Below are positions 18,633 to 63,103 of a stretch of DNA of 64,000 nt, in pieces. The notes beneath the pieces are model-generated. The model did not search any database and had not been told where the DNA came from. It worked only from the letters and a program-made list of their open reading frames with translations. This DNA comes from Tildeniella nuda ZEHNDER 1965/U140. Its GTDB lineage: Bacteria; Cyanobacteriota; Cyanobacteriia; Leptolyngbyales; Leptolyngbyaceae. The position numbers and the translations under genes were made by a program. The stretch lies in assembly GCA_019358895.1 (NCBI GenBank), contig JAHHIG010000003.1, positions 310,001 to 374,000 on the forward strand. Reading direction: 5' to 3'. Numbering within the stretch: the stretch's first letter is position 1; every line of letters starts with the position of its first letter.

Positions 18633-19934
18633 CTTAGTGATGTAGAAAAGTCTTGAAAGTACTGATATGCCGTTGTCTCAATGAGACAAGAAGAGCTTGG
18701 GTAGGGCAGATTATGAGATGCTCAAGTTCCTACACCAAAGACATCTGATGCAACTGCCCCATCTGTATCGTCAGCTAATCAACCAATTGCGTCAATGGGT
18801 TACGCCGCAGGATCAACGCCACCTGCAAAGTGTCAGCGAAGCCGTCGCTGCAATTCTCCAATCTGGCAATGCCAGCCTGAATCGCTGGTTGCCGTTCTTG
18901 AGCCATCGCCCTTGCACGGCTCGGAGTCATCTCGCTCGCCTCGGCTATCTCGTGAGGAATCCGCATATCAATGCGAAAACGTTTTATGCTCCGTTGCTGC
19001 GCCAATTTCTGCAAGCCTTCGTTGGTGCGGACTTATTGCTAACGCTCGATACCAGTGTGCTGTGGGATCAATACTGCCTGATTCAGGTTTGCCTGGTGTG
19101 GGGTGGACGCTCTATCACCTTGGCACAGGTGGTTCTAGAGCATGGCAGTGCGACCGTTGCCTTTGAGGACTATTGTCCGGTCTTGGAACAAGCCTTGAGC
19201 GTGCTGCCTGAACAAAGTCGAGTAACGTTACTTGCAGATCGCGGCTTTGCACACGGCGAGTTGATGCGCTGGTGTGACCGCCAACACTGGAGTTGGTTGA
19301 TTCGGGCAAAACGCGACTTGCAAATCACCTTGCCAACGGGTATCACACAGCCCGTCCATGCCCTGCTGCCGCCCGTCGAGCAAGCCTATCTGTTCCCCAA
19401 CGTCACCGTTCTGGGCGATATTACGGCGCATCTTGCCACTGCCACCTTGTCCAACGCCCACGAGCCTTGGGCGGTTCTGAGCAGTCGTTCGCCTTCGGTA
19501 CAAACCTTTGCCTGCTATGGCAAGCGCTTCGGCGGTATTGAACCCCACTTCAAGGATTACAAGTCCGCTGCCTTTGACATCATTGACTCCCACCTGCGCG
19601 ATGCCACTGCTCTCACCGGACTGTTCTTGTTGTTAGATCTTGCGACCTTCATTGCATTGCTTTTGGGAATCCTACTCGTCCAATCTGGACAACGCCACAC
19701 CCTGGATGCTCACCTAGAGCGCGGGTTGAGTTTTCTGCAACTCGGTTTGCGCTATCTCCAACAGTGCTGCTATCTCGCCAACCCCTTACCCCCTTTGGAG
19801 CCGCTTCCACCTCAAAATCCACCGCCTGCTTGTGCTTCTAGGAGTAAACGAAAGCGCTTAGAGGTTCAGATTCAGTTCTCTCGCATCACTACATTCTCAG
19901 CTTGAGTCTCAAAAAAGTTTTCTACACCACTAAG
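18633..19934 (+). mobile_element. IS4-family insertion sequence, copy 1 (1,302 bp)
   Basis: The boundaries are fixed by comparison with the second copy at 45841-47142, which appears identical throughout. Imperfect terminal inverted repeats begin CTTAGTGATGTAGAAAA at the left and CTTAGTGGTGTAGAAAA (read inward) at the right. One transposase gene fills the element. The left flank is gcccccacg and the right flank gcttttctc, so this copy is not bordered by a matching duplication on its own. Confidence 0.92.
18697..19905 (+). CDS. IS4-family DDE transposase (copy 1)
   Basis: A 402-residue transposase. Probable DDE residues are Asp in LTLDTSVLWD, Asp in LLADRGFAHGEL, and Glu in the YREK-like block YGKRFGGIEPHFKDYK, which places it in the IS4 family. 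The start is TTG at 18697 or, more conventionally, ATG at 18718; nothing decides between them. The gene is intact. The same protein is encoded at 45905-47113. Confidence 0.9.
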   Translation: MGRADYEMLKFLHQRHLMQLPHLYRQLINQLRQWVTPQDQRHLQSVSEAVAAILQSGNASLNRWLPFLSHRPCTARSHLARLGYLVRNPHINAKTFYAPLLRQFLQAFVGADLLLTLDTSVLWDQYCLIQVCLVWGGRSITLAQVVLEHGSATVAFEDYCPVLEQALSVLPEQSRVTLLADRGFAHGELMRWCDRQHWSWLIRAKRDLQITLPTGITQPVHALLPPVEQAYLFPNVTVLGDITAHLATATLSNAHEPWAVLSSRSPSVQTFACYGKRFGGIEPHFKDYKSAAFDIIDSHLRDATALTGLFLLLDLATFIALLLGILLVQSGQRHTLDAHLERGLSFLQLGLRYLQQCCYLANPLPPLEPLPPQNPPPACASRSKRKRLEVQIQFSRITTFSA

Positions 19935-20638
19935 GCTTTTCTCTTTCTGGCTCGTTCACGCATTTGACGGTGGTAGTCCAGCTTGTCCAGCGAAAACCAA
20001 CCAATCAGACCCCTAAGATACTTAAGTAACTCTGTCTGAGAAGAGACATCAATGGTGCTAATAGGACGCAGACCCTCATAATCCGGATCCGTCCAAAACG
20101 CTGTAAATTTTTCGAGGCTCAGTTTTGTCTGGTCTGAAAATAGCGCCGCCTTGGCACGATACTCGACTGGAAGTTGCCGATTCAGGACCAACTGCCGTTC
20201 TCTCCCACCCCGTCGATGATAAGCCGTTGAGGTGCCAGGAAGGGATTGGGGGATTTCCCAGGTCTCCTGCGGTTTTGGCTTGAGATAACCCTGCTCTTTG
20301 CACCACACTAAGAAATGACTGAGGTAATGCTTGTTCGGGCGACACGTCGTCCTAGGTGCGTTGAGCGACTCAAACACCTCTGCTTGCCATGTCAAGACGC
20401 GGTCAATTTCCCAGAGGTCATCTAACTTTACTTGTCTGGCAAAACCCCAGGCCATTTCAGTTTTTTGAGCACTCAACAGTTCGCCTCGCTTCACCTCAAA
20501 GTCAAACCCGAAACCTTTGTAGGGAAGCAGGTAATGAAAGATAGCAGTCCTGAGCTGGACGGCTTTTTTAGGAAAGTCTTTGATGTATTCGAAGTAGGCA
20601 GCATCCAGTGTACTAACTTCATTCAAAGTGGTAGACAT
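19922..20638 (-). pseudogene. N-terminal half of an IS-split tyrosine-recombinase-like gene
   Basis: This 238-codon frame runs from 20638 into the IS end; only the last few residues and the stop at 19922 come from IS sequence. Removing the IS and one 9-bp duplication joins it in frame to the minus-strand frame at 45831-44151 (2,385 bases in all, 795 codons with stop). The N-terminal region is helical and resembles a recombinase core-binding domain (HYLSHFLVWCKEQGYL). The separated fragment has no catalytic residues and is probably inactive. The protein likely served plasmid integration or multimer resolution. Confidence 0.8.
19935..19943. repeat. Target-site duplication B, right of IS copy 1
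   Basis: gcttttctc abuts the right end of IS copy 1 and lies inside the recombinase reading frame. The same nine bases sit at 45832-45840, left of IS copy 2. Confidence 0.85.
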
Positions 20639-27585: not shown

Positions 27586-27855
27586 GTGAACGTTTCACTT
27601 ACGTCAGAGCTTGAGAAGTATGTCAGTGAGAAGGTCGCTAGTGGTTTGTACCACTCTGCCAGCGAGGTGATCCGCGAAGGGTTACGCCTGCTTAAGGATC
27701 AGGATGCCTTGCGGGAAATCAGGCTCAATGAGCTGCGGCAGCAAATCCAGGCAGGCCTTGATAGTGGGGAATCGCAGCCCCTCGATATCGAGGCTGTCAT
27801 TGATCGGGGCAGAAAACGCCGTGCGGAGCGCAGCCAAGCCAGCCACCAAGTTTAA
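27586..27855 (+). CDS. parD: ParD-type antitoxin (module 2)
   Basis: An 89-residue antitoxin from a GTG start. Residues 1-45 form the ribbon-helix-helix DNA-binding domain (VSLTSELEKYVSEKVASGL), and the tail is the toxin-binding segment. It is paralogous to the antitoxin at 20970-21209, with about half of the residues shared by eye. The toxin gene follows by 5 bases. Expected to autorepress the pair. Confidence 0.88.
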   Translation: MNVSLTSELEKYVSEKVASGLYHSASEVIREGLRLLKDQDALREIRLNELRQQIQAGLDSGESQPLDIEAVIDRGRKRRAERSQASHQV

Positions 27856-27860
27856 TCAAT

Positions 27861-28163
27861 ATGGGTAGATTGGTCGTCAGGCCGCAGGCGCTTACAGACC
27901 TGGACGATATTTTTGACTACATCGCCGAGGACAGCCTTGACCGTGCGATCGCGTTTATTAGGAAGCTCTATGGGCAAATGGAGACGTTAGCTGCCAGCCT
28001 GGGTATCGGGCGTCGTCGTGATGTCTTGTTGCCTGGACTGCGGAGCTTTCCTTATGGCAACTACCTGATTTTCTATCTTCCTCTTGATGATGGAGTTGAT
28101 GTCGTGCGTTTGCTCAACGGTGCCAGGGATCTAGAGGCGCTGTTTCAGAATGAGGCGCTTTAA
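27861..28163 (+). CDS. parE: ParE-type toxin (module 2)
   Basis: A 100-residue RelE/ParE-fold toxin. It has the N-terminal helical hairpin (DLDDIFDYIAEDSLDRA) and the conserved core GLRSFPYGNYLIFYLP, followed by the terminal strand VVRLLNGARDLEALF. It appears intact, unlike the toxin of module 1. ParE toxins of this type act on DNA gyrase. Its role here is probably post-segregational maintenance of the integrated plasmid. Confidence 0.88.
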   Translation: MGRLVVRPQALTDLDDIFDYIAEDSLDRAIAFIRKLYGQMETLAASLGIGRRRDVLLPGLRSFPYGNYLIFYLPLDDGVDVVRLLNGARDLEALFQNEAL

Positions 28164-28234
28164 TTTTCAGGATGCTGCCTTTCTTGAGAGTAAGCGCACC
28201 AAAAACGCGGGCTAGCGACCCAGACAGCCCGACG

Positions 28235-28347
28235 TTTAGATGTTTAGATGTTTAGCCACTTTGAGTTTAATCGTTGCTCCAATGTCCGAAAGCTTGCACT
28301 CTAAAGCAGCTAAACACGCAGATGCTTAGCTGCTTGGATGCTCAAGC
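28235..28347. repeat. 8-bp repeat clusters downstream of the par operon
   Basis: Two clusters: 28235-28257 (TTTAGATG twice, then a partial) and 28320-28347 (AGATGCTT, AGCTGCTT, GGATGCTC). The octamer frame is the same as in the other clusters around parA. They are probably part of the partition centromere; the second overlaps the 3' end of the ribbon-helix-helix gene. Confidence 0.6.
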
Positions 28348-28632
28348 GTCTTGCCTTGAGTCTAACCACTGCTCTAGCAACTCTTCGACGATCGCACTCA
28401 TTTCCTTTTCTTCGTGTGCCGCTGCTGCTTTCAAGCGCCGATGCATAGCTTTCGGCAGGTAAATCGTCGTCCGCTGATAGTTAGGGTCTTTACTTTTAGA
28501 TGTTTGAATGTCCAGATGTTCAGTTGTACTAGATGTCTGAGTGTCTGAGTGTCCAGGTGTTTCTGCTGCCTTACCTGAGCGGGCAGCACCAAAGAGGTTG
28601 TCAAAGCGGCTCCCTTCTTTCTTGGTGCTCAT
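28342..28632 (-). CDS. Ribbon-helix-helix partition partner of ParA (ParB-like)
   Basis: A 96-residue protein from the ATG at 28632, which overlaps the parA stop by 4 bases (ATGA); an upstream in-frame start would lengthen it by 13 residues but ignores this coupling. A flexible N-terminal arm rich in Ser/Thr precedes a ribbon-helix-helix domain (RTTIYLPKAMHRRLKAAA then MSAIVEELLEQWL). Small RHH proteins are the centromere-binding partners of small ParA ATPases in type Ib partition systems. The arm contains repeated QTS motifs because the gene itself contains the 8-bp repeats. Confidence 0.8.
   Translation of the reverse strand: MSTKKEGSRFDNLFGAARSGKAAETPGHSDTQTSSTTEHLDIQTSKSKDPNYQRTTIYLPKAMHRRLKAAAAHEEKEMSAIVEELLEQWLDSRQDA
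28494..28562. repeat. 8-bp repeats inside the RHH gene
   Basis: About eight octamers in register (TTTAGATG, TTTGAATG, TCCAGATG, TTCAGTTG, then TAGATGTC, TGAGTGTC twice and CAGGTGTT, with a 3-base slip). They encode the variable arm of the RHH protein, so the sequence serves as coding and as putative binding DNA at once. Confidence 0.65.
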
Positions 28633-29222
28633 GGCATGATCTCCCTGCCTACTTCGAGGTAGCAGCGCCATGCAATGCCAGCATAGGAATCACCCTTCAC
28701 CTCGTTCACAGGCACCCCCTCAAGCGCTGCCTTCTGGAACACTGCCAGCCGTCGAATGCCCGTTTTGAAGAGAGGTAACCCGGCTCTCTCCAGGGACGAT
28801 CGTGCTTCCTCCCCCACCTTGCTAGGCGCTGGCGGAATTAGAGTCAGCAAGATGCGATAGTCAGCCTCTAGTCCTTGTAATGCGTCTACCATCTGCAACA
28901 TTGCCCCCATTGCCAGCGCGTCAGGAGACGTGGGGAGAATCAGCAAATCTGTCCCCGATGCCAGCGTTTTCAGATCGTCCGGCGCAGGTCTCGCAGGGGT
29001 ATCAACCACAATATGCTCGTAATTGCGGGCAAACTTAACAGCAGCCTTCTCGTCCACTACTTTAAACGGCAGGTTCCCAGCACTTGCCCATTGCAAGGCA
29101 GAACGGTTTAAGTCGCCGTCAACCAACAGTGTGGGTGCTCTCATCTGGCAAAACGCCGCTAGATGCAAAGCAGTTGTACTTTTACCAACACCACCCTTAA
29201 AGGATGCGATCGTGATAATCAT
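28629..29222 (-). CDS. parA: ParA-type partition ATPase
   Basis: A 197-residue Walker-type ATPase with the deviant Walker A motif KGGVGKST (about 9-16), the DGD motif (LLVDGDLNRSA), and Walker B VVDTPAR. It is the short form without an N-terminal DNA-binding domain, typical of plasmid type Ib partition. The RHH partner overlaps its stop. Expected to move or anchor the plasmid on the nucleoid and so segregate it. It supports the view that this block is a former replicon. Confidence 0.9.
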   Translation of the reverse strand: MIITIASFKGGVGKSTTALHLAAFCQMRAPTLLVDGDLNRSALQWASAGNLPFKVVDEKAAVKFARNYEHIVVDTPARPAPDDLKTLASGTDLLILPTSPDALAMGAMLQMVDALQGLEADYRILLTLIPPAPSKVGEEARSSLERAGLPLFKTGIRRLAVFQKAALEGVPVNEVKGDSYAGIAWRCYLEVGREIMP

Positions 29223-29261
29223 TGATCTGTTTCATGATGCTTGACGGTAGTTTACTGCCTA

Positions 29262-29307
29262 AAGCATTTAGAAGCTTAAGCATCTGAACATCTAGATGTC
29301 TGAATAC
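29262..29307. repeat. 8-bp repeats upstream of parA, cluster 1
   Basis: Octamers in reverse orientation (AGCATTTA, GAAGCTTA, AGCATCTG, AACATCTA), then one forward unit (GATGTCTG). The cluster starts 40 bases upstream of the parA start, in the promoter region, so RHH binding here could also repress the operon. Confidence 0.6.
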
Positions 29308-29395
29308 CGCCTATGCATGACAGAATGCCTGTTCCCGTCTCTTTTATCAGCTAGCAGAGGCAGTGCTTAGGAGTAAGCTGTCTCGCTTCGTTTTC

Positions 29396-29437
29396 AATCT
29401 AAATGTCTAGATGTTCAGATGTCTAAATGCTTAGAGG
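29396..29437. repeat. 8-bp repeats upstream of parA, cluster 2
   Basis: Five octamers in perfect register: TCAATCTA, AATGTCTA, GATGTTCA, GATGTCTA, AATGCTTA. This is the cleanest array and gives the consensus RATGTYYA. Confidence 0.7.
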
Positions 29438-29507
29438 GGCGAGTCAAGTCTCCAGGTCGTTCAAGTTAAGGAGATAAGAGGCACCACATGACCCCAAATC
29501 TAAAAGC

Positions 29508-29541
29508 TAGATGCTTGAATGTCCAGATGTTTAGATGTCTT
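29508..29541. repeat. 8-bp repeats upstream of parA, cluster 3
   Basis: Octamers TAGATGCT, TGAATGTC, CAGATGTT, TAGATGTC in register, about 290 bases upstream of parA. Confidence 0.6.
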
Positions 29542-30014
29542 GTTGCTGACTCATAAGCAAACTTGAACAACTCATATGCTCACTACGCCTGCTTAACTGG
29601 CACAAGCGCCTCATTGATTAACTGTCACATTGAAGGCATTTAGTCCAAACGTAGTCCAGTATCTCAAAAGGTAGACTTATCTAAAACTGAGAACCTAGTA
29701 TTCACAGTGCTTTTAACCTTATACTTTGCCCTCTCGGTTAGTTGCTCAAACAGCAGAAGTGCAGGGAGAAGAAGAAGGGTAAAGGCGGCTGGACAAGGGT
29801 TTTGGGGATTGTGCCAGTTTGCGGTTAGTCTAGGGGTAGCTATGAGATTGGATGGTAAGCCTCTCTTATGAATGAACATTCCATGTGCACGGCACCAGAG
29901 GGCTGAGCCGACAACTCGGTCGAAGCCTACGAAGAAATAGGGATTGTGCAGAAAAAACCGTTGAACGATTGCTTTAGGAAACAAAATAATCAAATGTCTA
30001 AGTCAATAAGTTGT
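29542..30014. other. Intergenic, no supported gene
   Basis: A 109-codon minus-strand frame exists at 29664-29993, but it has no ribosome site, no family I recognise and an odd Phe/Cys/His-rich composition, so I do not call it. Otherwise nothing is seen. Confidence 0.35.
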
Positions 30015-45840: not shown

Positions 45841-47142
45841 CTTAGTGATGTAGAAAAGTCTTGAAAGTACTGATATGCCGTTGTCTCAATGAGACAAGAA
45901 GAGCTTGGGTAGGGCAGATTATGAGATGCTCAAGTTCCTACACCAAAGACATCTGATGCAACTGCCCCATCTGTATCGTCAGCTAATCAACCAATTGCGT
46001 CAATGGGTTACGCCGCAGGATCAACGCCACCTGCAAAGTGTCAGCGAAGCCGTCGCTGCAATTCTCCAATCTGGCAATGCCAGCCTGAATCGCTGGTTGC
46101 CGTTCTTGAGCCATCGCCCTTGCACGGCTCGGAGTCATCTCGCTCGCCTCGGCTATCTCGTGAGGAATCCGCATATCAATGCGAAAACGTTTTATGCTCC
46201 GTTGCTGCGCCAATTTCTGCAAGCCTTCGTTGGTGCGGACTTATTGCTAACGCTCGATACCAGTGTGCTGTGGGATCAATACTGCCTGATTCAGGTTTGC
46301 CTGGTGTGGGGTGGACGCTCTATCACCTTGGCACAGGTGGTTCTAGAGCATGGCAGTGCGACCGTTGCCTTTGAGGACTATTGTCCGGTCTTGGAACAAG
46401 CCTTGAGCGTGCTGCCTGAACAAAGTCGAGTAACGTTACTTGCAGATCGCGGCTTTGCACACGGCGAGTTGATGCGCTGGTGTGACCGCCAACACTGGAG
46501 TTGGTTGATTCGGGCAAAACGCGACTTGCAAATCACCTTGCCAACGGGTATCACACAGCCCGTCCATGCCCTGCTGCCGCCCGTCGAGCAAGCCTATCTG
46601 TTCCCCAACGTCACCGTTCTGGGCGATATTACGGCGCATCTTGCCACTGCCACCTTGTCCAACGCCCACGAGCCTTGGGCGGTTCTGAGCAGTCGTTCGC
46701 CTTCGGTACAAACCTTTGCCTGCTATGGCAAGCGCTTCGGCGGTATTGAACCCCACTTCAAGGATTACAAGTCCGCTGCCTTTGACATCATTGACTCCCA
46801 CCTGCGCGATGCCACTGCTCTCACCGGACTGTTCTTGTTGTTAGATCTTGCGACCTTCATTGCATTGCTTTTGGGAATCCTACTCGTCCAATCTGGACAA
46901 CGCCACACCCTGGATGCTCACCTAGAGCGCGGGTTGAGTTTTCTGCAACTCGGTTTGCGCTATCTCCAACAGTGCTGCTATCTCGCCAACCCCTTACCCC
47001 CTTTGGAGCCGCTTCCACCTCAAAATCCACCGCCTGCTTGTGCTTCTAGGAGTAAACGAAAGCGCTTAGAGGTTCAGATTCAGTTCTCTCGCATCACTAC
47101 ATTCTCAGCTTGAGTCTCAAAAAAGTTTTCTACACCACTAAG
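45841..47142 (+). mobile_element. IS4-family insertion sequence, copy 2 (1,302 bp)
   Basis: Identical by eye to copy 1 (18633-19934), same orientation and ends. The left flank is gcttttctc, the right flank gcccccacg. Confidence 0.92.
45905..47113 (+). CDS. IS4-family DDE transposase (copy 2)
   Basis: The same 402-residue protein as at 18697-19905, with no differences. The two copies give long direct homology, so the interior can still be excised as a circle by recombination. Confidence 0.9.
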   Translation: MGRADYEMLKFLHQRHLMQLPHLYRQLINQLRQWVTPQDQRHLQSVSEAVAAILQSGNASLNRWLPFLSHRPCTARSHLARLGYLVRNPHINAKTFYAPLLRQFLQAFVGADLLLTLDTSVLWDQYCLIQVCLVWGGRSITLAQVVLEHGSATVAFEDYCPVLEQALSVLPEQSRVTLLADRGFAHGELMRWCDRQHWSWLIRAKRDLQITLPTGITQPVHALLPPVEQAYLFPNVTVLGDITAHLATATLSNAHEPWAVLSSRSPSVQTFACYGKRFGGIEPHFKDYKSAAFDIIDSHLRDATALTGLFLLLDLATFIALLLGILLVQSGQRHTLDAHLERGLSFLQLGLRYLQQCCYLANPLPPLEPLPPQNPPPACASRSKRKRLEVQIQFSRITTFSA

Positions 47143-47151
47143 GCCCCCACG
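47143..47151. repeat. Target-site duplication A, right copy
   Basis: gcccccacg abuts the right end of IS copy 2, matching 18624-18632. Confidence 0.85.
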
Positions 47152-53711: not shown

Positions 53712-54374
53712 ATGACCTCAAGTGTTTGGAAAACGACGTTGTCAAATCATTTGTCTTCCAATAATAAATATCAGCTATTAAATCAAACTTATGCAGATTT
53801 GGTTTTTGAGCTAATAGGACAAGAAATAAGCCGCGACTACGGTTACAAGTTATATGCTGCACTTTCACATTGTAAGCCTTTATTGCATTCCCTTGAGAGC
53901 ATCAGTATTCAGCTAATCAACGGTTCCCCTACTCAAAAGTCACGTTTACGAATGCGATTACCTGCTGATCACATTCCGAATTTTTACTCTTTAGCAGGCA
54001 AGACACTTTCAATCGGCGATCGAAAAATTCGTTTGGGTGTTCCTCAAATCCATCCTCTAGAAGCGGCACAGAATCTTTACTCACCCATTGTGGTAATTAG
54101 AGGTTACCAAGAACCATCATCATTTCTAGAGGCGGCATATCGACAATTTCAAAAACTTGGTATCGAGGCAGAAATGAACCTCCTAGTAAATCGTAATAGT
54201 GAACCCAGCCGGAGAGTAATGCGAGTCAAGCAGTTCACACTTGTAGGGTTTGGTCTTGAAGTAACTAATCTTTGTGAGCAGGATTCTTTACTTTTACAAG
54301 TTCATGGCATAGGCGGAAAACAAAAAATGGGCTGTGGTTTCTTCACTCCTCAGCTAAAAATTGGCAATCGCTAA
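53712..54374 (+). CDS. cas6: Cas6 CRISPR RNA-processing endonuclease
   Basis: A 220-residue RAMP protein of the type I-B (I-MYXAN/Cmx6-like) Cas6 type. The C-terminal glycine-rich loop (VHGIGGKQKMGCGFF) is diagnostic. It cuts the repeat transcript and may stay bound to the crRNA. It is first in the cas operon; cas8 starts 14 bases downstream. Confidence 0.85.
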   Translation: MTSSVWKTTLSNHLSSNNKYQLLNQTYADLVFELIGQEISRDYGYKLYAALSHCKPLLHSLESISIQLINGSPTQKSRLRMRLPADHIPNFYSLAGKTLSIGDRKIRLGVPQIHPLEAAQNLYSPIVVIRGYQEPSSFLEAAYRQFQKLGIEAEMNLLVNRNSEPSRRVMRVKQFTLVGFGLEVTNLCEQDSLLLQVHGIGGKQKMGCGFFTPQLKIGNR

Positions 54375-54388
54375 ACCAGAACAATTCT

Positions 54389-55897
54389 ATGAGTATCAGA
54401 TTGAGGATTGACTGCCCTGCAATGACACTTTTACACCTTGCTGGGTTTGTGGGGCTTTGGATGACACTCAGAAAGCTACAAGAAAATTACCCTACGGAAA
54501 ACTTAAGGCCAGGTAGGTTAAATTGGTCTCTCGCTCCCAGTGAGATCTGCATCACCTGGAATGGGGAAGACTTTGAAGTTTTAGATTGGTTGCTTAATCG
54601 AGCTTTTCAAGTAGACAATAAAGGGCTCATAGTTTTAACGGGTCTGTACTCAGATCAGATGAGTATTGAAGCCCAATTAGCACGCCATCAATGTCTAACG
54701 AGAACCTTCTTGCAGCACAATAAGTCTATAAGTTCAGACGGACAGGGAAGTGAGTTTATTCGATTAAGTGGTCGCGATGTTGAAGTTAAATATAAAAAAG
54801 TGAAAAGGTATGGACATCAGGACTTTGCAAAGAAGCTTTGTGATGAGAAAGGAATGCTGAGAACGGAACCAATAGGCATTGTGAGTTGGCTATATCCAGG
54901 ATTAACAGTACGTCATTATGCCTTTAAAGAGCATACTAAATTTGAAGAGCCTGTGGAATTGATTTTTGTTTTACTCTTTGCTATTGTTGCTTGCAAGTAT
55001 TTCATACTTCTAAATAGCGCCGAAGGAAGCAAGAGGCAATACGCTTTAGTCATTCCTGAATTTACTGATTTGGAAGGCTACCTTGGAAATCAAAAACAAG
55101 CTGAAAAACTTAGTTATGGAGACTTTTTTGCTTTTGGTTTAGGTGATGCTGGATTGAAATCTATTACTTGTCAGCCCGGAAAAGAGTTTTCGGAAGAACT
55201 TCAACCTTATCGAGGTCAAGTTATCTTATTTAATCAAGCTCCTTGGTCACTGCAGCAGAATACTCGCAGCATTATTTTACATTTATGTATCAGAGAAGAG
55301 ACTTTAAGCCCTTACAGCGTTTTTCGCGAGTTTGATTTGCAAACAATGGTCTGGAACTGCACTAGCCAAAGAAGCAAATTGGCTTATAGTTTTGCTGGCA
55401 AAATAATTACAGAAAATTTAGCAAATAATCAGCCTTGGTGGTCTAGTTTCTCTGAATATTCTCAGAATGAAGAATTTTTCCAGCTTATTTTAGATGCAAG
55501 GAAAGTGTTGCTCTATATGTTGAGAAAGACAAAGCATGATAGTAGAGCAGAAGAATTATTTATCCAGGCTTGCCATGAAACGTTTAGAAGAATCTACGCC
55601 AAAATTTACGATCGCACTCAAGACGGAGAGTTTGCTCAGATTGAACGGAAAAATCAGCAACTTCGCTATCGACTAAGGCTTTGTAAAAATGAAGATGCTT
55701 TTCGAGGGTTTCTCACGGGCTTTCTTGCCGAAGCCGTTCCGAACTCAGTTGTTGTAAATAATCAGACTGAATTGATGCCAATTCTTACAGGTCAAATTGA
55801 TTGGAAGCTCACAAGAGATCTCTTTCTACTTTCAATGGTTAGCTACAAAAAGGTTGGAAATTTAGCAGAAGAAAGCGTATCTCAGAAAGGTGAGTAG
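54389..55897 (+). CDS. cas8: Cas8 large subunit (type I-B, Cmx8/Cas8a-like)
   Basis: A 502-residue protein following cas6. N-terminal blocks (LHLAGFVGLWMTLRKL, SWLYPGLTVRHYAF) match Cmx8-type Cas8 proteins of I-B/MYXAN systems. The helical C-terminal 125 residues look like a small-subunit (Cas11) segment with an internal start at 55517. Expected to recognise the PAM within a Cascade that lacks Cas3. No nuclease domain seen. Confidence 0.78.
   Translation: MSIRLRIDCPAMTLLHLAGFVGLWMTLRKLQENYPTENLRPGRLNWSLAPSEICITWNGEDFEVLDWLLNRAFQVDNKGLIVLTGLYSDQMSIEAQLARHQCLTRTFLQHNKSISSDGQGSEFIRLSGRDVEVKYKKVKRYGHQDFAKKLCDEKGMLRTEPIGIVSWLYPGLTVRHYAFKEHTKFEEPVELIFVLLFAIVACKYFILLNSAEGSKRQYALVIPEFTDLEGYLGNQKQAEKLSYGDFFAFGLGDAGLKSITCQPGKEFSEELQPYRGQVILFNQAPWSLQQNTRSIILHLCIREETLSPYSVFREFDLQTMVWNCTSQRSKLAYSFAGKIITENLANNQPWWSSFSEYSQNEEFFQLILDARKVLLYMLRKTKHDSRAEELFIQACHETFRRIYAKIYDRTQDGEFAQIERKNQQLRYRLRLCKNEDAFRGFLTGFLAEAVPNSVVVNNQTELMPILTGQIDWKLTRDLFLLSMVSYKKVGNLAEESVSQKGE
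55517..55897 (+). CDS. Possible internal cas11 (small subunit) translated from within cas8
   Basis: An in-frame ATG (codon 377 of cas8) with an AGGAAAG site about 10 bases upstream would give a 126-residue helical protein (MLRKTKHDSRAEELFIQ). Independent translation of a small subunit from the end of cas8 is known in types I-B, I-C and I-D. Here it is inference. Confidence 0.4.
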   Translation: MLRKTKHDSRAEELFIQACHETFRRIYAKIYDRTQDGEFAQIERKNQQLRYRLRLCKNEDAFRGFLTGFLAEAVPNSVVVNNQTELMPILTGQIDWKLTRDLFLLSMVSYKKVGNLAEESVSQKGE

Positions 55898-55940
55898 ATG
55901 TTTGAAATTTCAAAAGTGGTTAAATATTTTGGAGACAAAG

Positions 55941-56852
55941 ATGAGACATCTGTTTGGAAACTTTTTAACTCATTATGGGATTGCCGCTAATAATCGTGGA
56001 GAGAACGAAGGTAATCTAGCTACCCTGCAGAAGATTTTATGGAAGGGTGAAGTCCATTCGACAGTCTCAGGGGAATCAACTCGATGGTCACTTAGGTACA
56101 GTTTGCAAAAAAGAGGCTATGACGTCAACCGTGAGTGGAATGATGACACTTGCAGCTTTACTCTAAAAAACCCTGATTATGATAGTGAAGCTTATGCAGA
56201 TGATGACATTTTCGGCTTCCTGCGCTTAGAGGCAGCAAAGGTTGATGGCTCTGATCAAATTCAGCAGGAATCAAAGTCCAAAGCTAGTAAATCAAAGCTC
56301 ACTCAAGAGCCCAAAGGCACAAATATTTCTAGAAGAGGTGCATTAGAAGTAGCTCGCGCCGTTTCCATAAATTCTTTTATGGGAGATACCATTTTCAACG
56401 CTAAGTCTGGCGAGAAGGGGCGGAATTCTCTTTACAGCACTGAGGTTCACGCGACCAAGTACCAATATGGTTTCGCCTTAACTCCTGATCATCTAAAGGA
56501 CAAATCTCGTGCCTTTGCCGTACTTGACTGTCTCATCTCACTCAGCCAGGTTGGGGGAAATCACGCTCGGTTTCTCTATGATTTCTCTCCTAGTAGCCTG
56601 GTTTTGCGCTGGACACATGATTTTGCACCTCGTCTTTTGTATTGCTTTGAAGAGGATGAGGATGGGAATATTTCTTCTCAGAACTTAATTCGACAAATCT
56701 CCTCTGGAGATATAGATCCAGAGGAGTTATGGGTCGGTGGGCTTTGCTCTGAGGCTTTAGCTGAATGTGGCGCTCACGTTTTCCCAGGTGTAAAGGCTGC
56801 TGTCGAAGCAATTAAAAACGTCATCGCCAGAGATTTACAGGTATCACTATGA
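55941..56852 (+). CDS. cas7: Cas7 backbone subunit (DevR/Cst2-like)
   Basis: A 303-residue protein from the ATG at 55941, chosen for the GGAG site upstream and the conserved N-terminus (HLFGNFLTHYGIAANNRGEN); a GTG frame start at 55890 would overlap cas8. Other family blocks are EVHATKYQYGFALTPDHL and GGNHARFLYDFSP. It forms the helical backbone on the crRNA. cas5 overlaps by 4 bases. Confidence 0.88.
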   Translation: MRHLFGNFLTHYGIAANNRGENEGNLATLQKILWKGEVHSTVSGESTRWSLRYSLQKRGYDVNREWNDDTCSFTLKNPDYDSEAYADDDIFGFLRLEAAKVDGSDQIQQESKSKASKSKLTQEPKGTNISRRGALEVARAVSINSFMGDTIFNAKSGEKGRNSLYSTEVHATKYQYGFALTPDHLKDKSRAFAVLDCLISLSQVGGNHARFLYDFSPSSLVLRWTHDFAPRLLYCFEEDEDGNISSQNLIRQISSGDIDPEELWVGGLCSEALAECGAHVFPGVKAAVEAIKNVIARDLQVSL

Positions 56853-57487
56853 TTGCACTCAGAGTCGAAGTACCGATCGCTTGCTTCCGTCAATCACGCG
56901 CTAGGGAATATATTGAAACTTATCTTGTACCACCGCCTGCTACAGTCTACGGGATGCTGCTTTCGATAACCGGGGAAACCAACCGTTATTTGCACTGCGG
57001 TACTCAATTAGCGATCGCTCTTACTAAAGAACTAGAAAAATCTACTGTGGTTCGGACAGTGCATCGCTTTAAGACAAGAGATGTTGCTGATTCCAGTAAT
57101 ATTCGGCTGGACTATCAGGAGTTAGTCACTGGTGTTGAGTTAATTGTTTGGGTTGCGGCTGGTTCTGACAAATCTCGCCCGACTCTACCAGAACGCATAC
57201 AAGAAGCCTTTGCTAATCCCGCTTTAATCACTCGGTTTGGTGGCTTATGCTTGGGTGAAAGCCATGACTTAGTAAATGCTATCAATATTGTAGGAGAAGA
57301 ACAGCAAGAGGCATTATATTGGCTGGTTCAAAGTAAAACTGGCTATCTAACCTTACCGTATTGGGTCAACCATCTTGGCTTGAAGGGCACATACTGGAAG
57401 CGTTATGAGTTGCAGAAGCTTATGCAGCCATATCCTTCAGCTAACGCTTGGACAGAGATTCAGTCCTATCAATATGACAGCTCGTAA
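56849..57487 (+). CDS. cas5: Cas5 (DevS/Cmx5-like)
   Basis: A 212-residue RAMP protein; the family N-terminus FRQSRAREYIETYLVPPPAT and GMLLSITGE are clear. It caps the 5' end of the crRNA. Its ATG overlaps the cas7 stop. It is the last cas gene; no cas3, cas1 or cas2 follows, as in CRISPR-associated transposons. Confidence 0.88.
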   Translation: MIALRVEVPIACFRQSRAREYIETYLVPPPATVYGMLLSITGETNRYLHCGTQLAIALTKELEKSTVVRTVHRFKTRDVADSSNIRLDYQELVTGVELIVWVAAGSDKSRPTLPERIQEAFANPALITRFGGLCLGESHDLVNAINIVGEEQQEALYWLVQSKTGYLTLPYWVNHLGLKGTYWKRYELQKLMQPYPSANAWTEIQSYQYDSS

Positions 57488-58143: not shown

Positions 58144-58998
58144 ATGAGACCCGATCGTGATTGGAGTGAGAAAAAATACGAGAAATACCTTAAGGAAGGA
58201 CGAGGGGATGGTTGTGGTAAACAATATATACCTTGGATACAGGTGTATAAGTTCCATCCTAAAACTGGAAGGACGCGGATACCTGGTTGGACAACAGGTA
58301 GAGAACATCACTTGCTATCATTCCTAGAGCAGAAATTTTTCTTGCTATTGGATTGGTCGGATATTGTTTTTGATATTCAGGAACAGTTTCCCATGCTCGA
58401 TTATGAGCTAGCCCAGAAGATTGCGAAGGAGTTGAATTGGAAATACCCTATCAATTCTAGAAGTAACTTCCCCTATATCCTTACGACTGATTTCCTAGTT
58501 AGTTATAAGGAAAACGGGAGGGAGAAAAAGATTGCTATAGCTATCAAGCCTTCATCCGCCCTTAAGAAATGGGATAAATCCTGCCAACCTGATGAGAAAA
58601 ATGTTCTTTCAAGACTTGAACTTGAATATCGTTACTGGGAGCTAAAGAAGATTGAATGGAAACTCGTCACTGAAAGACAACTGCCAGAAGTTTTGACATA
58701 CAACCTTAACTTTATACATGGTGACCTTCATTTAGAAGCGACCACTCAAAATAGTATTGAAGAATTGCAGATTGCTGTCCCGACAGTTAAAGAACATTTT
58801 GCTAAATTTCAAGGTTGTGAAAAGTCTATTTATTCTATTACAGATTATTTAGATAGAACCCTCAAATTACAGGAAGGCACGGCTTTTCGTATCTTCAAGC
58901 ACTTGATTGCCTGCAAGAAAATTATAGTTAATCTGGAGACATTTCAACTTGATGAGAATCCTTCAATGACTTTAGTTAAACAAGTGGTTTTTAGTTAA
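58144..58998 (+). CDS. tnsA: TnsA, Tn7-like transposase endonuclease subunit
   Basis: A 284-residue protein with the TnsA nuclease core: Glu in GREHHLLSFLEQKF (about 54-62), Asp116 in ILTTDFLVSY and Lys135 in IAIKPSSAL, then a C-terminal winged-helix-like part. TnsA cuts the non-transferred 5' strands, giving cut-and-paste rather than cointegrate transposition. It is separate from tnsB, which begins at the next base. Confidence 0.85.
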   Translation: MRPDRDWSEKKYEKYLKEGRGDGCGKQYIPWIQVYKFHPKTGRTRIPGWTTGREHHLLSFLEQKFFLLLDWSDIVFDIQEQFPMLDYELAQKIAKELNWKYPINSRSNFPYILTTDFLVSYKENGREKKIAIAIKPSSALKKWDKSCQPDEKNVLSRLELEYRYWELKKIEWKLVTERQLPEVLTYNLNFIHGDLHLEATTQNSIEELQIAVPTVKEHFAKFQGCEKSIYSITDYLDRTLKLQEGTAFRIFKHLIACKKIIVNLETFQLDENPSMTLVKQVVFS

Positions 58999-61365
58999 TT
59001 GCCAACATACGAAATGAGCATCTACTTGACAGTCAACCGACTAATTGAATGGAATAATGAAGCTGGGGAACCAATCATAGAAAGAATTTTGTGGGTTGCG
59101 CCAGATTACACAATACTCTTTGCTATTGAAATTTTTGGTACATCGGCTCTTCCAACGAAGCGGCGAACTTATGATGTTGAAGCGGCTCTATCTGAAGGAC
59201 ATGCTCAGCTTCTAGATGATGATCCGTTTGCAAAGTATATTTCTGAGGAGAGCTTAGCTACTCAACAGAAGAAAGGAAAGAAGAAGGGAACGGAAGAATT
59301 AAGTCGTGATAAAGCTATTCGTGACAAGAACTTTGAATTAATCTCCTCTCTTGTCGGCTCTGAAATGGAGCCCGATATTTTTCTTGCTGATAAACGAGGA
59401 CCTCTAATTGAAGCGATCGTTGAGATGCATAATGCTGGTAAAGAGAAGGGCACGAGGAGGAGCAAGAACAAAAGCAGAGTAAGTGCAAAAACTATTTATG
59501 TAAATCTTAAAAAGTACTGGCAAAGAGGTAAGAATAAGAATGCTCTTCTACCTGATTATCCTAATTCTGGAGGCTTTGGTGTTCCAAAAGCAGCAGGTGA
59601 AAAAAAGAGAGGACGTCCTAGAAATCCTGAATTAGTTAGTAAGTTTGGAGAAGGGATCAACGTTTGTGAATCTATTAGAAAGATTATCAGAGTTGGTTTT
59701 GAGGAATTTTTCAATAGCACGCGTAAGAATCCACTAAGAACGGCGTTTAAGCTGACCAAAAGAAAATATTTCATTGGAAGAGAAATACTTGATGAAAAAG
59801 GTAAAAAAAGGAAAGAAGAAATCCCACCCAGTGAGCGGATAACATTTGAGCAGTTTGAGTATTGGTCCCAGAAGGATATTGATATTGAGAAGACTGAAAA
59901 ATCCCGAAGAGGTTCGATTGCCTATGCTCGCGATGTCGCTCCACATTTAGGGTCAGTTAAGGCACCTGGTCCAGGCTACCAGTATCTCATTGATGCTGTC
60001 ATTCTTGATGTCTACGTAATCTCACAATTTAATTCAAACTGGATTGTGGGAAGACCTGTTGCTTATATTGTCATGGACGTTTACAGCCGACTAATTGTTG
60101 GCATTTATGTTGGCTTAGAGGGTCCATCATGGATGGGTGCAATGATGGCATTAGCTAACGTGGCAGAAGATAAAGTTTCATTCTGTAAAAAATATGGCTT
60201 CTCCATTACTGAGGAGGAGTGGCCATGTAGAGAAATGCCGTACGAAATTCTTGCCGACAATGGTGAGATGGCAGGCAAAAAGCCAGACACTTTAATCAAT
60301 AATCTCGACATTAGAGTTGTCAATGCTCCACCTTATCGTCCTGACTGGAAAGGGGTTTTAGAGCGTTATTTCAGAACGATACAGAAGTATGTAGAGCCTT
60401 TCTTGCCAGGTTATGTAGTACCCCGTAGAGAGGGTCCGGACTATCGTTTAGATGCAAAGCTAACGCTTAAAAGTGTTACAAAGATAATGCTTAAAATCAT
60501 TGTCTGGCATAACAACTTCCACCGAATAAAAAGCTATTCTCGAACTGAGGAGATGATCGCAAATGATGTACCCCCAGTTCCAATTAAATTATGGAATTTT
60601 GGACGTAGATATACCGGAAACCCTAGATATTTCCCTGAGGATATAGTCAAGCTAAATCTTTTGCCAACCGCTCAAGCAAGGGTTACACCTAGAGGCATCG
60701 TATTCAAGGGTAGGAGGTATTATTCTGAAAGCCCTCAAATCAAAAAGCTGATCCAACTAGCCAATGTAGGTTACCTGACAGAAGGGGAGAAGAATTTAGA
60801 CATCTCATTTGATCTAAGGAGACCTGACGTTATCTATGTTAGGGAAGAGCGGGGAAGAACGTATGAGAAATTGTTTCTCCATCCATCTGAGAAGAAATAC
60901 TTTGGAAAATCTATCGAGGAAATCGAGTATTTGATCAAACGAGAAAACCTTGATCACAAATTGGGCGAAGAAGATGAGTTTCAAGGTGAAGCTCAATTAA
61001 TGGATCAGATTGAGGCAGAAGTTGCCGAGACAAAATCTGAGGCAAAAGCTCAATATGATCCAAGTTTAAGTAAGACAAAGAAGCTCTCTGGTATAAGCAA
61101 CAACCGAGGGCGCGACAAAGATGCTAATCGAGCCGTTGAAGGTGAGGAATATGAGTTTGGTGATCCAGAGCCTTTAGGCTTGCTTGAAGTTGAACAATCA
61201 CTAGAATCTTTAGGTGCAGTTGGATCTGAGCAAGAAACTAAAATTGGTCATTCAGATTCTACCGAAGCTCTTGATGAATCAAAAGTTCAGCCCGAACCTT
61301 TATCAGCTCGTGCAAGGCGTAGGAATTCCATCAAACAGGCTAAGGAGAAAGCAAATGGATCCTGA
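58999..61365 (+). CDS. tnsB: TnsB, DDE transposase of the Tn7-like element
   Basis: A 788-residue protein from a TTG at 58999 adjoining the tnsA stop, or an ATG at 59014. The retroviral-integrase-like core carries Asp332 (YLIDAVILDVYV), Asp420 (EILADNGEM) and Glu455 (KGVLERYF). N-terminal DNA-binding helices precede it and a charged tail (about 700-788) that should contact TnsC follows. It binds the transposon ends and joins 3' ends to the target. tnsC overlaps by 11 bases. Confidence 0.9.
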   Translation: MPTYEMSIYLTVNRLIEWNNEAGEPIIERILWVAPDYTILFAIEIFGTSALPTKRRTYDVEAALSEGHAQLLDDDPFAKYISEESLATQQKKGKKKGTEELSRDKAIRDKNFELISSLVGSEMEPDIFLADKRGPLIEAIVEMHNAGKEKGTRRSKNKSRVSAKTIYVNLKKYWQRGKNKNALLPDYPNSGGFGVPKAAGEKKRGRPRNPELVSKFGEGINVCESIRKIIRVGFEEFFNSTRKNPLRTAFKLTKRKYFIGREILDEKGKKRKEEIPPSERITFEQFEYWSQKDIDIEKTEKSRRGSIAYARDVAPHLGSVKAPGPGYQYLIDAVILDVYVISQFNSNWIVGRPVAYIVMDVYSRLIVGIYVGLEGPSWMGAMMALANVAEDKVSFCKKYGFSITEEEWPCREMPYEILADNGEMAGKKPDTLINNLDIRVVNAPPYRPDWKGVLERYFRTIQKYVEPFLPGYVVPRREGPDYRLDAKLTLKSVTKIMLKIIVWHNNFHRIKSYSRTEEMIANDVPPVPIKLWNFGRRYTGNPRYFPEDIVKLNLLPTAQARVTPRGIVFKGRRYYSESPQIKKLIQLANVGYLTEGEKNLDISFDLRRPDVIYVREERGRTYEKLFLHPSEKKYFGKSIEEIEYLIKRENLDHKLGEEDEFQGEAQLMDQIEAEVAETKSEAKAQYDPSLSKTKKLSGISNNRGRDKDANRAVEGEEYEFGDPEPLGLLEVEQSLESLGAVGSEQETKIGHSDSTEALDESKVQPEPLSARARRRNSIKQAKEKANGS

Positions 61366-63103
61366 AAATCAATGGATTTTACTTCCTAGTGGAATTTATG
61401 CTCATGTAGCAGACTATAAATTGCATGGGGTACCAGAGTACGATTGCAATCCCTTGCTCCAAGCACTTCCTGCAGTTCTAGAGGAGCATGAGTTTTTTGA
61501 GAGGGTACAAAGCTATCCCAGTTCTACTAGCGAGGAACGGAATCAATCACCTAGGACAAGGCACCAATTTGTGCATCGATTGACTGGACCCATACCAAAC
61601 CTTCACTTCTACCATCTCACTCCAAATCTTAAGCCTGTAGTGAATGGATATTTCCATCCACTTCCTGAGCACATTGGCATATATGATGCCATCAATGGAG
61701 CTATTATGCAGGGCTATATAGCGAGAGGGATTTACTCTCCTAAGGATGCAGAGCGTGCACAACAGATTCATGGAGCAGCTGTCCAGAAAGCTGGGCATAA
61801 TCTCGCTCAATTTATTTCAGCTTCTTCTTCTGCACATGGAAATATTTTGATTGGGCTCTCCGGATGCGGTAAAACAACGGCTGTTCTCCGCGCTCTTAGT
61901 GTTTATCCTCAGGTTATCTATCATCCTGAATATGATTTTTTGCAGCTTGTCTACCTCGTAGTTAACTGTCCCCATGCAGGCTCTATTAAAGAATTGTGTC
62001 TGTTTGTTTTTCGGGAAGTTGATAGAACATTTGGATTAGCTGGCAAGAAAAGTTACGCCAATAAATATAGTATAAGCACTACTTCTGAAGGAACTCTCCT
62101 TGCTGAAGTTGCAGCCATTGCAGACAAGTATCGGTTAGGTCTTTTGTTTATCGATGAATTGCAAAACCTTACTGCCGCTAAGAAAGAACTCCCAGAACGA
62201 ATGCTGAATTATTTCGTTAATCTTGTAAATATCGGCATTCCAGTCTTTCAAGCTGGTACTAGAAGAGCTGCGAAACTGCTTCGAGGAAGCCTTAGCAAGG
62301 CGCGGCGAGCAGGAGGAGTTCAGTGGGGACGAATTTTAGATAAGGAGGATTGGTCTAATTTTATTCAGAGTCTATTTGAATCACAATGGACAAGAACACC
62401 AACGCCTTATACAGCAGAAATAGGTGAGGCTTTCGTTAAAGAATGTAAATTTATTCCTGACCTTGCTATTAAACTGCATAAGGCATGTCAATGGAGAGCA
62501 ATTGCTGATGGAGGAGATGAAATTATTACTGCAAAGTTGCTCGGTGAAGTTGCACAAGAAATCTTTATTAACCTTCGACCCTTACTTGATTCCATTCAAG
62601 ATAATAATTCAGAGAATATAGATTTGTACGAGGATTTATTAGATAACTTCGACATTGAAGAATTTCGAGAAACTTGCTCACAGAAGACTAAGAAGAGGGA
62701 AAGCGATGAGCTTCATAGGAGATCAAAGGAGCGGCGAAAAAAAGAGGAAGAGATTGTTCTCAAACAGCAATTCCTCACTAAAGCCCTCTACGAACTTGAT
62801 GAAACTCTCGATTCCTTCTTAGTCAAAGCTTGTGTGGAAAAGGCATTAGAGTCGAATCCTAAGGAAGAGGACTTACAGTCTCTTATTACAGCAGCTCATA
62901 AACTAGCGCTAGATAGTTTGGTCTCAAAATTCAGCAATGTGGCGAACAAGAAGCAGAGTAAAGCAGTCTTAGAATATCGGGAGAATGACCTTAGATTAAT
63001 TACTAAGAAAGCCCAGGAAAGCAATATATCTGAGTTTGAAGTTTTGCAATCTTATGGAATTTTTATGGATCCTGTAGAGAAATTTCTTGTTCAAAATGGT
63101 TGA
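61355..63103 (+). CDS. tnsC: TnsC, AAA+ regulator of the Tn7-like element
   Basis: A 582-residue AAA+ protein from the ATG at 61355, chosen for its TAAGGAG site; a longer frame open to 61214 lies within tnsB. Walker A is GLSGCGKT (167-174) and Walker B LLFIDEL (about 263-269). It links target selection by TniQ/TnsD to the TnsAB transposase. The C-terminal charged helical region is the likely TnsA/B contact. Confidence 0.9.
   Translation: MDPENQWILLPSGIYAHVADYKLHGVPEYDCNPLLQALPAVLEEHEFFERVQSYPSSTSEERNQSPRTRHQFVHRLTGPIPNLHFYHLTPNLKPVVNGYFHPLPEHIGIYDAINGAIMQGYIARGIYSPKDAERAQQIHGAAVQKAGHNLAQFISASSSAHGNILIGLSGCGKTTAVLRALSVYPQVIYHPEYDFLQLVYLVVNCPHAGSIKELCLFVFREVDRTFGLAGKKSYANKYSISTTSEGTLLAEVAAIADKYRLGLLFIDELQNLTAAKKELPERMLNYFVNLVNIGIPVFQAGTRRAAKLLRGSLSKARRAGGVQWGRILDKEDWSNFIQSLFESQWTRTPTPYTAEIGEAFVKECKFIPDLAIKLHKACQWRAIADGGDEIITAKLLGEVAQEIFINLRPLLDSIQDNNSENIDLYEDLLDNFDIEEFRETCSQKTKKRESDELHRRSKERRKKEEEIVLKQQFLTKALYELDETLDSFLVKACVEKALESNPKEEDLQSLITAAHKLALDSLVSKFSNVANKKQSKAVLEYRENDLRLITKKAQESNISEFEVLQSYGIFMDPVEKFLVQNG

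Follow-up and report, generated by a model that had tools for sequence, protein, structure and literature searches.

The window, a 64,000-nucleotide stretch of the Tildeniella nuda genome, carries a two-gene operon on its minus strand, in which parA (29222-28629) is followed by a ribbon-helix-helix (RHH) gene (28632-28342). The start codon ATG of the RHH gene overlaps the parA stop (ATGA), and this 4-bp overlap is common to many homologues. Around and inside the operon, a matrix built from relatives finds 27 octamer units in seven clusters (C1 to C7) between 28228 and 29542, every cluster keeping a single strict 8-bp register. From left to right the features are:

28228-28255, plus strand: C1, three units downstream of the operon
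28302-28345, plus strand: C2, five degenerate units that run up to the stop codon of the RHH gene
28342-28632, minus strand: RHH gene, encoding a predicted centromere-binding protein of 96 aa
28496-28523, plus strand: C3, three units inside the RHH gene, arm-coding
28529-28556, plus strand: C4, three units inside the RHH gene, in a register 1 bp off that of C3
28629-29222, minus strand: parA, encoding a small type Ib ParA/ParF-like Walker ATPase of 197 aa
29260-29303, no single strand: C5, five units among which the orientation flips, at 38-81 bp upstream of parA
29399-29434, plus strand: C6, four contiguous units
29507-29542, plus strand: C7, four contiguous units

The parA product matches CbiA and AAA_31 from Pfam, and in PDB it matches 3cwq (E 1.7e-69) and ParF itself (4dzz, E 6e-8). 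Its 197 residues include no N-terminal DNA-binding extension, and the Walker motif KGGVGK occupies residues 9-14. It scores below the curated cut-off of the NCBIfam ParA family partition ATPase NF041546 (88.7 versus 180 bits).

The RHH protein has a conserved N-terminal SRFDxLF motif, a variable linker and a C-terminal RHH domain; in its structural model pLDDT is below 50 at residues 21-41 and about 90 or more across the RHH part. It matches Pfam RHH_1 above cut-off and falls just under the gathering cut-off of Pfam ParG (PF09274; 18.5 versus 21.4 bits), a family matched at E<=0.01 by 14 of 32 of its relatives. Searching PDB with the single RHH sequence gave weak matches only, and profile searching performed better: the RHH part is homologous to ParG with an hhalign probability of 95 over 42 columns and an hmmsearch profile E of 5.2e-5. 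ParG (1p94) is also the top Foldseek match (E 0.07), and is the closest solved relative with a partition function.

Octamer clusters downstream of the operon, inside the RHH gene and at three places upstream had been described in a sequence-only reading of this DNA, and all of these proved real; that reading missed only the degenerate C2, immediately beyond the end of the RHH gene, and the 1-bp shift of phase within it. C2 matches the downstream arrays of relatives. Only three places in the 64 kb show strong lag-8 self-similarity (28214-28263, 28529-28560 and 29398-29437), and TRF recovers the same arrays. When a three-unit pattern was searched through the 6.08-Mb genome with up to 2 mismatches allowed, it gave 10 matches, nine of them at the par locus, while the reversed control pattern gave one. 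Scans for promoters and terminators did no better than chance.

Each unit consists of a tetramer core, ATGT or ACAT, and a YYRR spacer that is mostly YTAR, so the consensus first proposed, TRRATGYY, is right and is better written YYRR-ATGT. Since YYRR is its own reverse complement in that alphabet, units may point either way and stay in the 8-bp register. The orientation flip noted earlier is genuine and is an instance of this, with units at 29262-29300 pointing both ways within register. We counted pairs of cores in 63 par loci (the window included) with an RTTxYL-type strand in the RHH protein. Upstream of parA, 393 of the 644 pairs are spaced by a multiple of 8 bp, as are 148 of 181 downstream of the RHH gene, compared with 26 of 142 in the far-flank control, and all four orientation combinations occur in register.

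Absence of the repeats from homologous par loci had been named as the refuting observation; the octamers are present there, and conserved despite drift of the proteins. We collected 100 loci, each a ParA relative with its following ORF, and scored period 8 against dinucleotide shuffles (P<=0.02). It is significant upstream of parA in 72 of 100 loci, downstream of the RHH ORF in 38 of 98 and inside the RHH ORF in 12 of 100, counts that are conservative because some of the following ORFs are miscalled. Control segments gave far less (0/100 and 2/99 for two segments of parA, 1/95 and 5/91 for the far flanks). Upstream, period 7 is near background (5/100), and an excess at period 12 (16/100) is probably a harmonic, because 2x12 = 3x8.

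The letters of the unit are common to loci with the RTTxYL strand and differ in several loci with other strands. Three or more in-register ATGT/ACAT cores are found in 45 of 63 RTTxYL loci versus 5 of 34 others (Fisher P 1e-7, uncorrected for relatedness of the loci). Units from other strand types, still at period 8, include GTTAATC-like (L029), TAACCAGA (L040) and TTAGTCTC (L057). Period 8 also appears in plasmids of Thermus, Deinococcus, Abditibacteriota, Paludibaculum and Paludisphaera, and in ParG-type loci of Enterobacterales. Two contigs filed as a Woesearchaeota archaeon (L064) and a Tatlockia MAG (L066) carry cyanobacterial-type parA-RHH loci with ATGT arrays (ParA identity 84% and 79%), and are probably misbinned cyanobacterial plasmids.

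The sister locus, from Stenomitos rutilans (L063), has a ParA 99% identical to that of the window, with 49 third-position changes in 198 codons and 2 amino-acid changes. The upstream arrays of the two differ by a 32-bp block at C5, that is, by four whole units more in the sister, and single cores read ACAT in one locus and ATGT at the same place in the other. The sister par module lies on a 78.9-kb contig, and the alignment covers only this module, the neighbouring nuclease-like gene and one distant stretch.

Known partition systems offer several points of comparison. As in ParF-ParG-parH of TP228, a small ParA and a small RHH protein with a flexible N-terminal arm are encoded in one operon. 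The parH site of TP228 consists of degenerate tetramer boxes separated by spacers (PMC7308502). The sequence-only reading had set the 8-bp unit apart from ParG, a contrast that does not hold: significant period 8 is present in four of five ParG-type loci, either upstream of parF or in the stretch from the parF-parG gap through parG, and in the remaining one downstream of parG. Upstream P is 0.005 in L143, L144 and L147, 0.035 in L146 and 0.22 in L145; the stretch spanning the gap and parG is significant in L143, L146 and L147, and the region downstream of parG in L145 and L146. The 8-bp unit length is therefore not new: it is the spacing known from ParG, here with another tetramer. ParG is moreover the top structural match. 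Unlike TP228, the present locus has an ATGT/ACAT core where ParG loci show an ACTC-like box, a YYRR spacer, a 4-bp gene overlap, and arrays inside the RHH gene and downstream as well.

In the delta-omega-parS system of pSM19035, an RHH protein acts on contiguous short repeats, direct and inverted, of which at least four contiguous copies are needed (PMC9499535). An RHH protein and contiguous repeats in both orientations are found here too, but the pSM19035 repeats are 7-bp WATCACW heptads at promoters and those here are 8-bp units; omega is a weak profile match to our RHH protein (E 0.5). C5, C6 and C7 reach the four-repeat minimum, and C1, C3 and C4 have three units each. In the portion of the pMET1 report drawn on here, the plasmid has ParF/ParG homologues and a putative parH with eight imperfect direct repeats whose sequence bears no relation to the TP228 repeats (PMC2262945), and thus appears to combine the same kind of protein with drifting repeat letters; pMET1 is not cyanobacterial, and arrays within the gene go unreported in that portion. 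The ParA family extends to pSYSX of Synechocystis PCC 6803, whose copies are 58% identical; there the first RHH protein (EQVSAYI strand) differs in having no ATGT arrays, and the second has a degenerate upstream array.

The small ParA, the RHH protein with its unstructured arm and the direct and inverted repeats upstream are the features of type Ib ParA partition loci. Proteins of this kind in TP228 and pSM19035 coat short repeats, act as repressors of their own operon and activate ParA (PMC7308502, PMC9499535, PMC5016525), and by analogy the same roles are taken as the best reading here. What we observed is the anatomy of the locus, the 8-bp register, the conservation of the octamers and their near-confinement to this place in the genome, their link to RHH type, and more octamer signal in arm DNA than its peptide requires. 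On these grounds we are confident that the locus holds a ParFGH-like (type Ib) cassette for DNA partition, in which the octamers are the predicted centromere and operator and would be coated by RHH dimers. Conservation, the association with RHH type and the coding of the arm support the sequence-only interpretation in part; its ParG contrast is not supported, and its assumption of a plasmid is doubtful.

We infer RHH binding, cooperativity, ATPase stimulation, repression and segregation, as follows. The RHH protein would form dimers whose beta-ribbon enters the major groove at every ATGT/ACAT core. Cores 8 bp apart with a strand-neutral YYRR spacer would let dimers bind in either direction with the array unbroken, and runs of units would nucleate a protein-coated stretch of DNA, the centromere. 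The N-terminal SRFDxLF segment would stimulate the ParA ATPase, and the upstream clusters would let the RHH protein repress its own operon; C5 is likely an operator as well as a centromere. In the window and about four other lineages the array reaches into arm-coding DNA, with linker codons chosen to keep the units.

It is unlikely that the octamers are operator sites for autorepression only, with no centromere. The clusters nearest to parA do lie upstream of it, at 38-81 bp and beyond, and in a 31-row clade of Nostocales, several of whose members are on long chromosomal records (7-11 Mb), the upstream array persists and there is next to nothing of one downstream. Arrays within the RHH gene, across its stop codon or downstream are, however, not required for repression; Oscillatoria plasmid pOSC7112.03 (L054, NC_019731.1) has a further octamer array (150321-150356) 26 kb from its par operon; and in type Ib systems both functions belong to a single protein (PMC5016525). 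The downstream loss in Nostocales may reflect an operator-only role in chromosomes. Downstream of two of these chromosomal copies (L104 and L122) lies a convergent lipoprotein-like gene; a tyrosine-recombinase-like gene is also present at L104, and a topoisomerase-I-like gene upstream at L122, all named by eye.

The intragenic octamers fall in the DNA for the RHH linker, which is largely unstructured in the model. They do encode the flexible arm, as first proposed, and with more octamer signal than the peptide requires: the octamer score of the window arm is reached by only 20 of 20000 synonymous recodings (P = 0.001). HLDIQTS-like linker peptides occur in the window and in L063, L079, L087, L113 and L138/L139, with at least five changes of state on a ParA tree that does not separate gain from loss. 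Among these, the arm score is reached by 56 of 20000 recodings for L087 and 152 for L063, and by none of 20000 for L079, L113 or L138. Because 8 is 2 modulo 3, a YTAR spacer would give an in-frame stop once per three units; at these would-be stop places the window arm has CAG and CAA (Gln), and the T-to-C change behind them is one that the spacer tolerates elsewhere. In 17 loci an array runs over the RHH stop, which lies at the same spacer position in 14 and one base off in three.

We lean slightly towards an explanation in which the centromere has spread, one unit at a time, into the gene that encodes its binder. Some five lineages would then have functional sites in linker DNA, where the recognition sequence dictates the linker peptide, and elsewhere the stop codon would come from the array. 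With YYRR spacers that are neutral to strand and a constant 8-bp pitch, units could be gained, lost or flipped freely. That the intragenic octamers are instead arm peptide repeats selected at the protein level, resembling the flanking arrays as a by-product, seems quite improbable. The recurrence of the motif HLDIQTS/SDTQTS in five lineages speaks for such selection, but the codons chosen yield more octamer score than the same peptide needs, arm substitutions between the sisters inside the array are spacer transitions with none in a core, and the peptide is absent from most homologues.

Short tandem repeats are well known in cyanobacteria, which counts for the octamers being generic repeats located here by chance, but almost nothing is left of that reading, refuted by the confinement to the par locus of nine of the ten genome-wide three-unit matches and by the association of arrays with parA-RHH across genera.

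In the literature searched we found no cyanobacterial centromere of the octamer/RHH kind. The predicted cyanobacterial centromere, its strand-neutral spacers and the repeated entry into the coding sequence of the binder are new in that they are undescribed in that literature; also new are the arrays carrying the RHH stop codon and the 31-member Nostocales clade with an upstream array only. If the partition reading is right, many cyanobacterial plasmids would have a testable parS-like site, useful for stable vectors, and the loci would show, as a natural series, how repeat letters, orientation and protein contacts drift while the 8-bp pitch stays fixed. The same bases would moreover serve as a DNA recognition site and as code for a protein linker.

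The assumption that the window lies on a plasmid is doubtful. Its contig is 422.8 kb long and carries the gene for ribosomal protein S12 (rpsL), so the par copy is probably chromosomal; rpsL was used for this placement because a 16S rRNA search found no match in the genome. Against chromosomal placement, the contig may be misassembled. The seemingly chromosomal copy may function for an integrated element, or it may be a relict. Neither the window nor its flanks hold a tRNA gene as an integration landmark.

Directly beside the par operon is a ParD/ParE toxin-antitoxin pair (27586-28163); nothing corresponding to it lies in the part of the sister locus that aligned. At 53712-57484 lie type I-MYXAN/I-B CRISPR effector genes (cas6, cas8, cas7 and cas5, by NCBIfam), after which ORFs at 58144-63100 resemble tnsA, tnsB and tnsC; together these are probably a CRISPR-associated transposon. 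Just right of the window (about 64567-64625) are three 20-bp-spaced repeats, TGTTTTACTTTTTTATCC, that are like transposon-end sites and may be one end of it. Arrival of the par locus as cargo of this transposon would call for a matching left end, but none was found in the window or in the 20 kb left of it. Identical 1304-bp copies at 18633-19936 and 45841-47144 encode a transposase-like protein of 402 aa.
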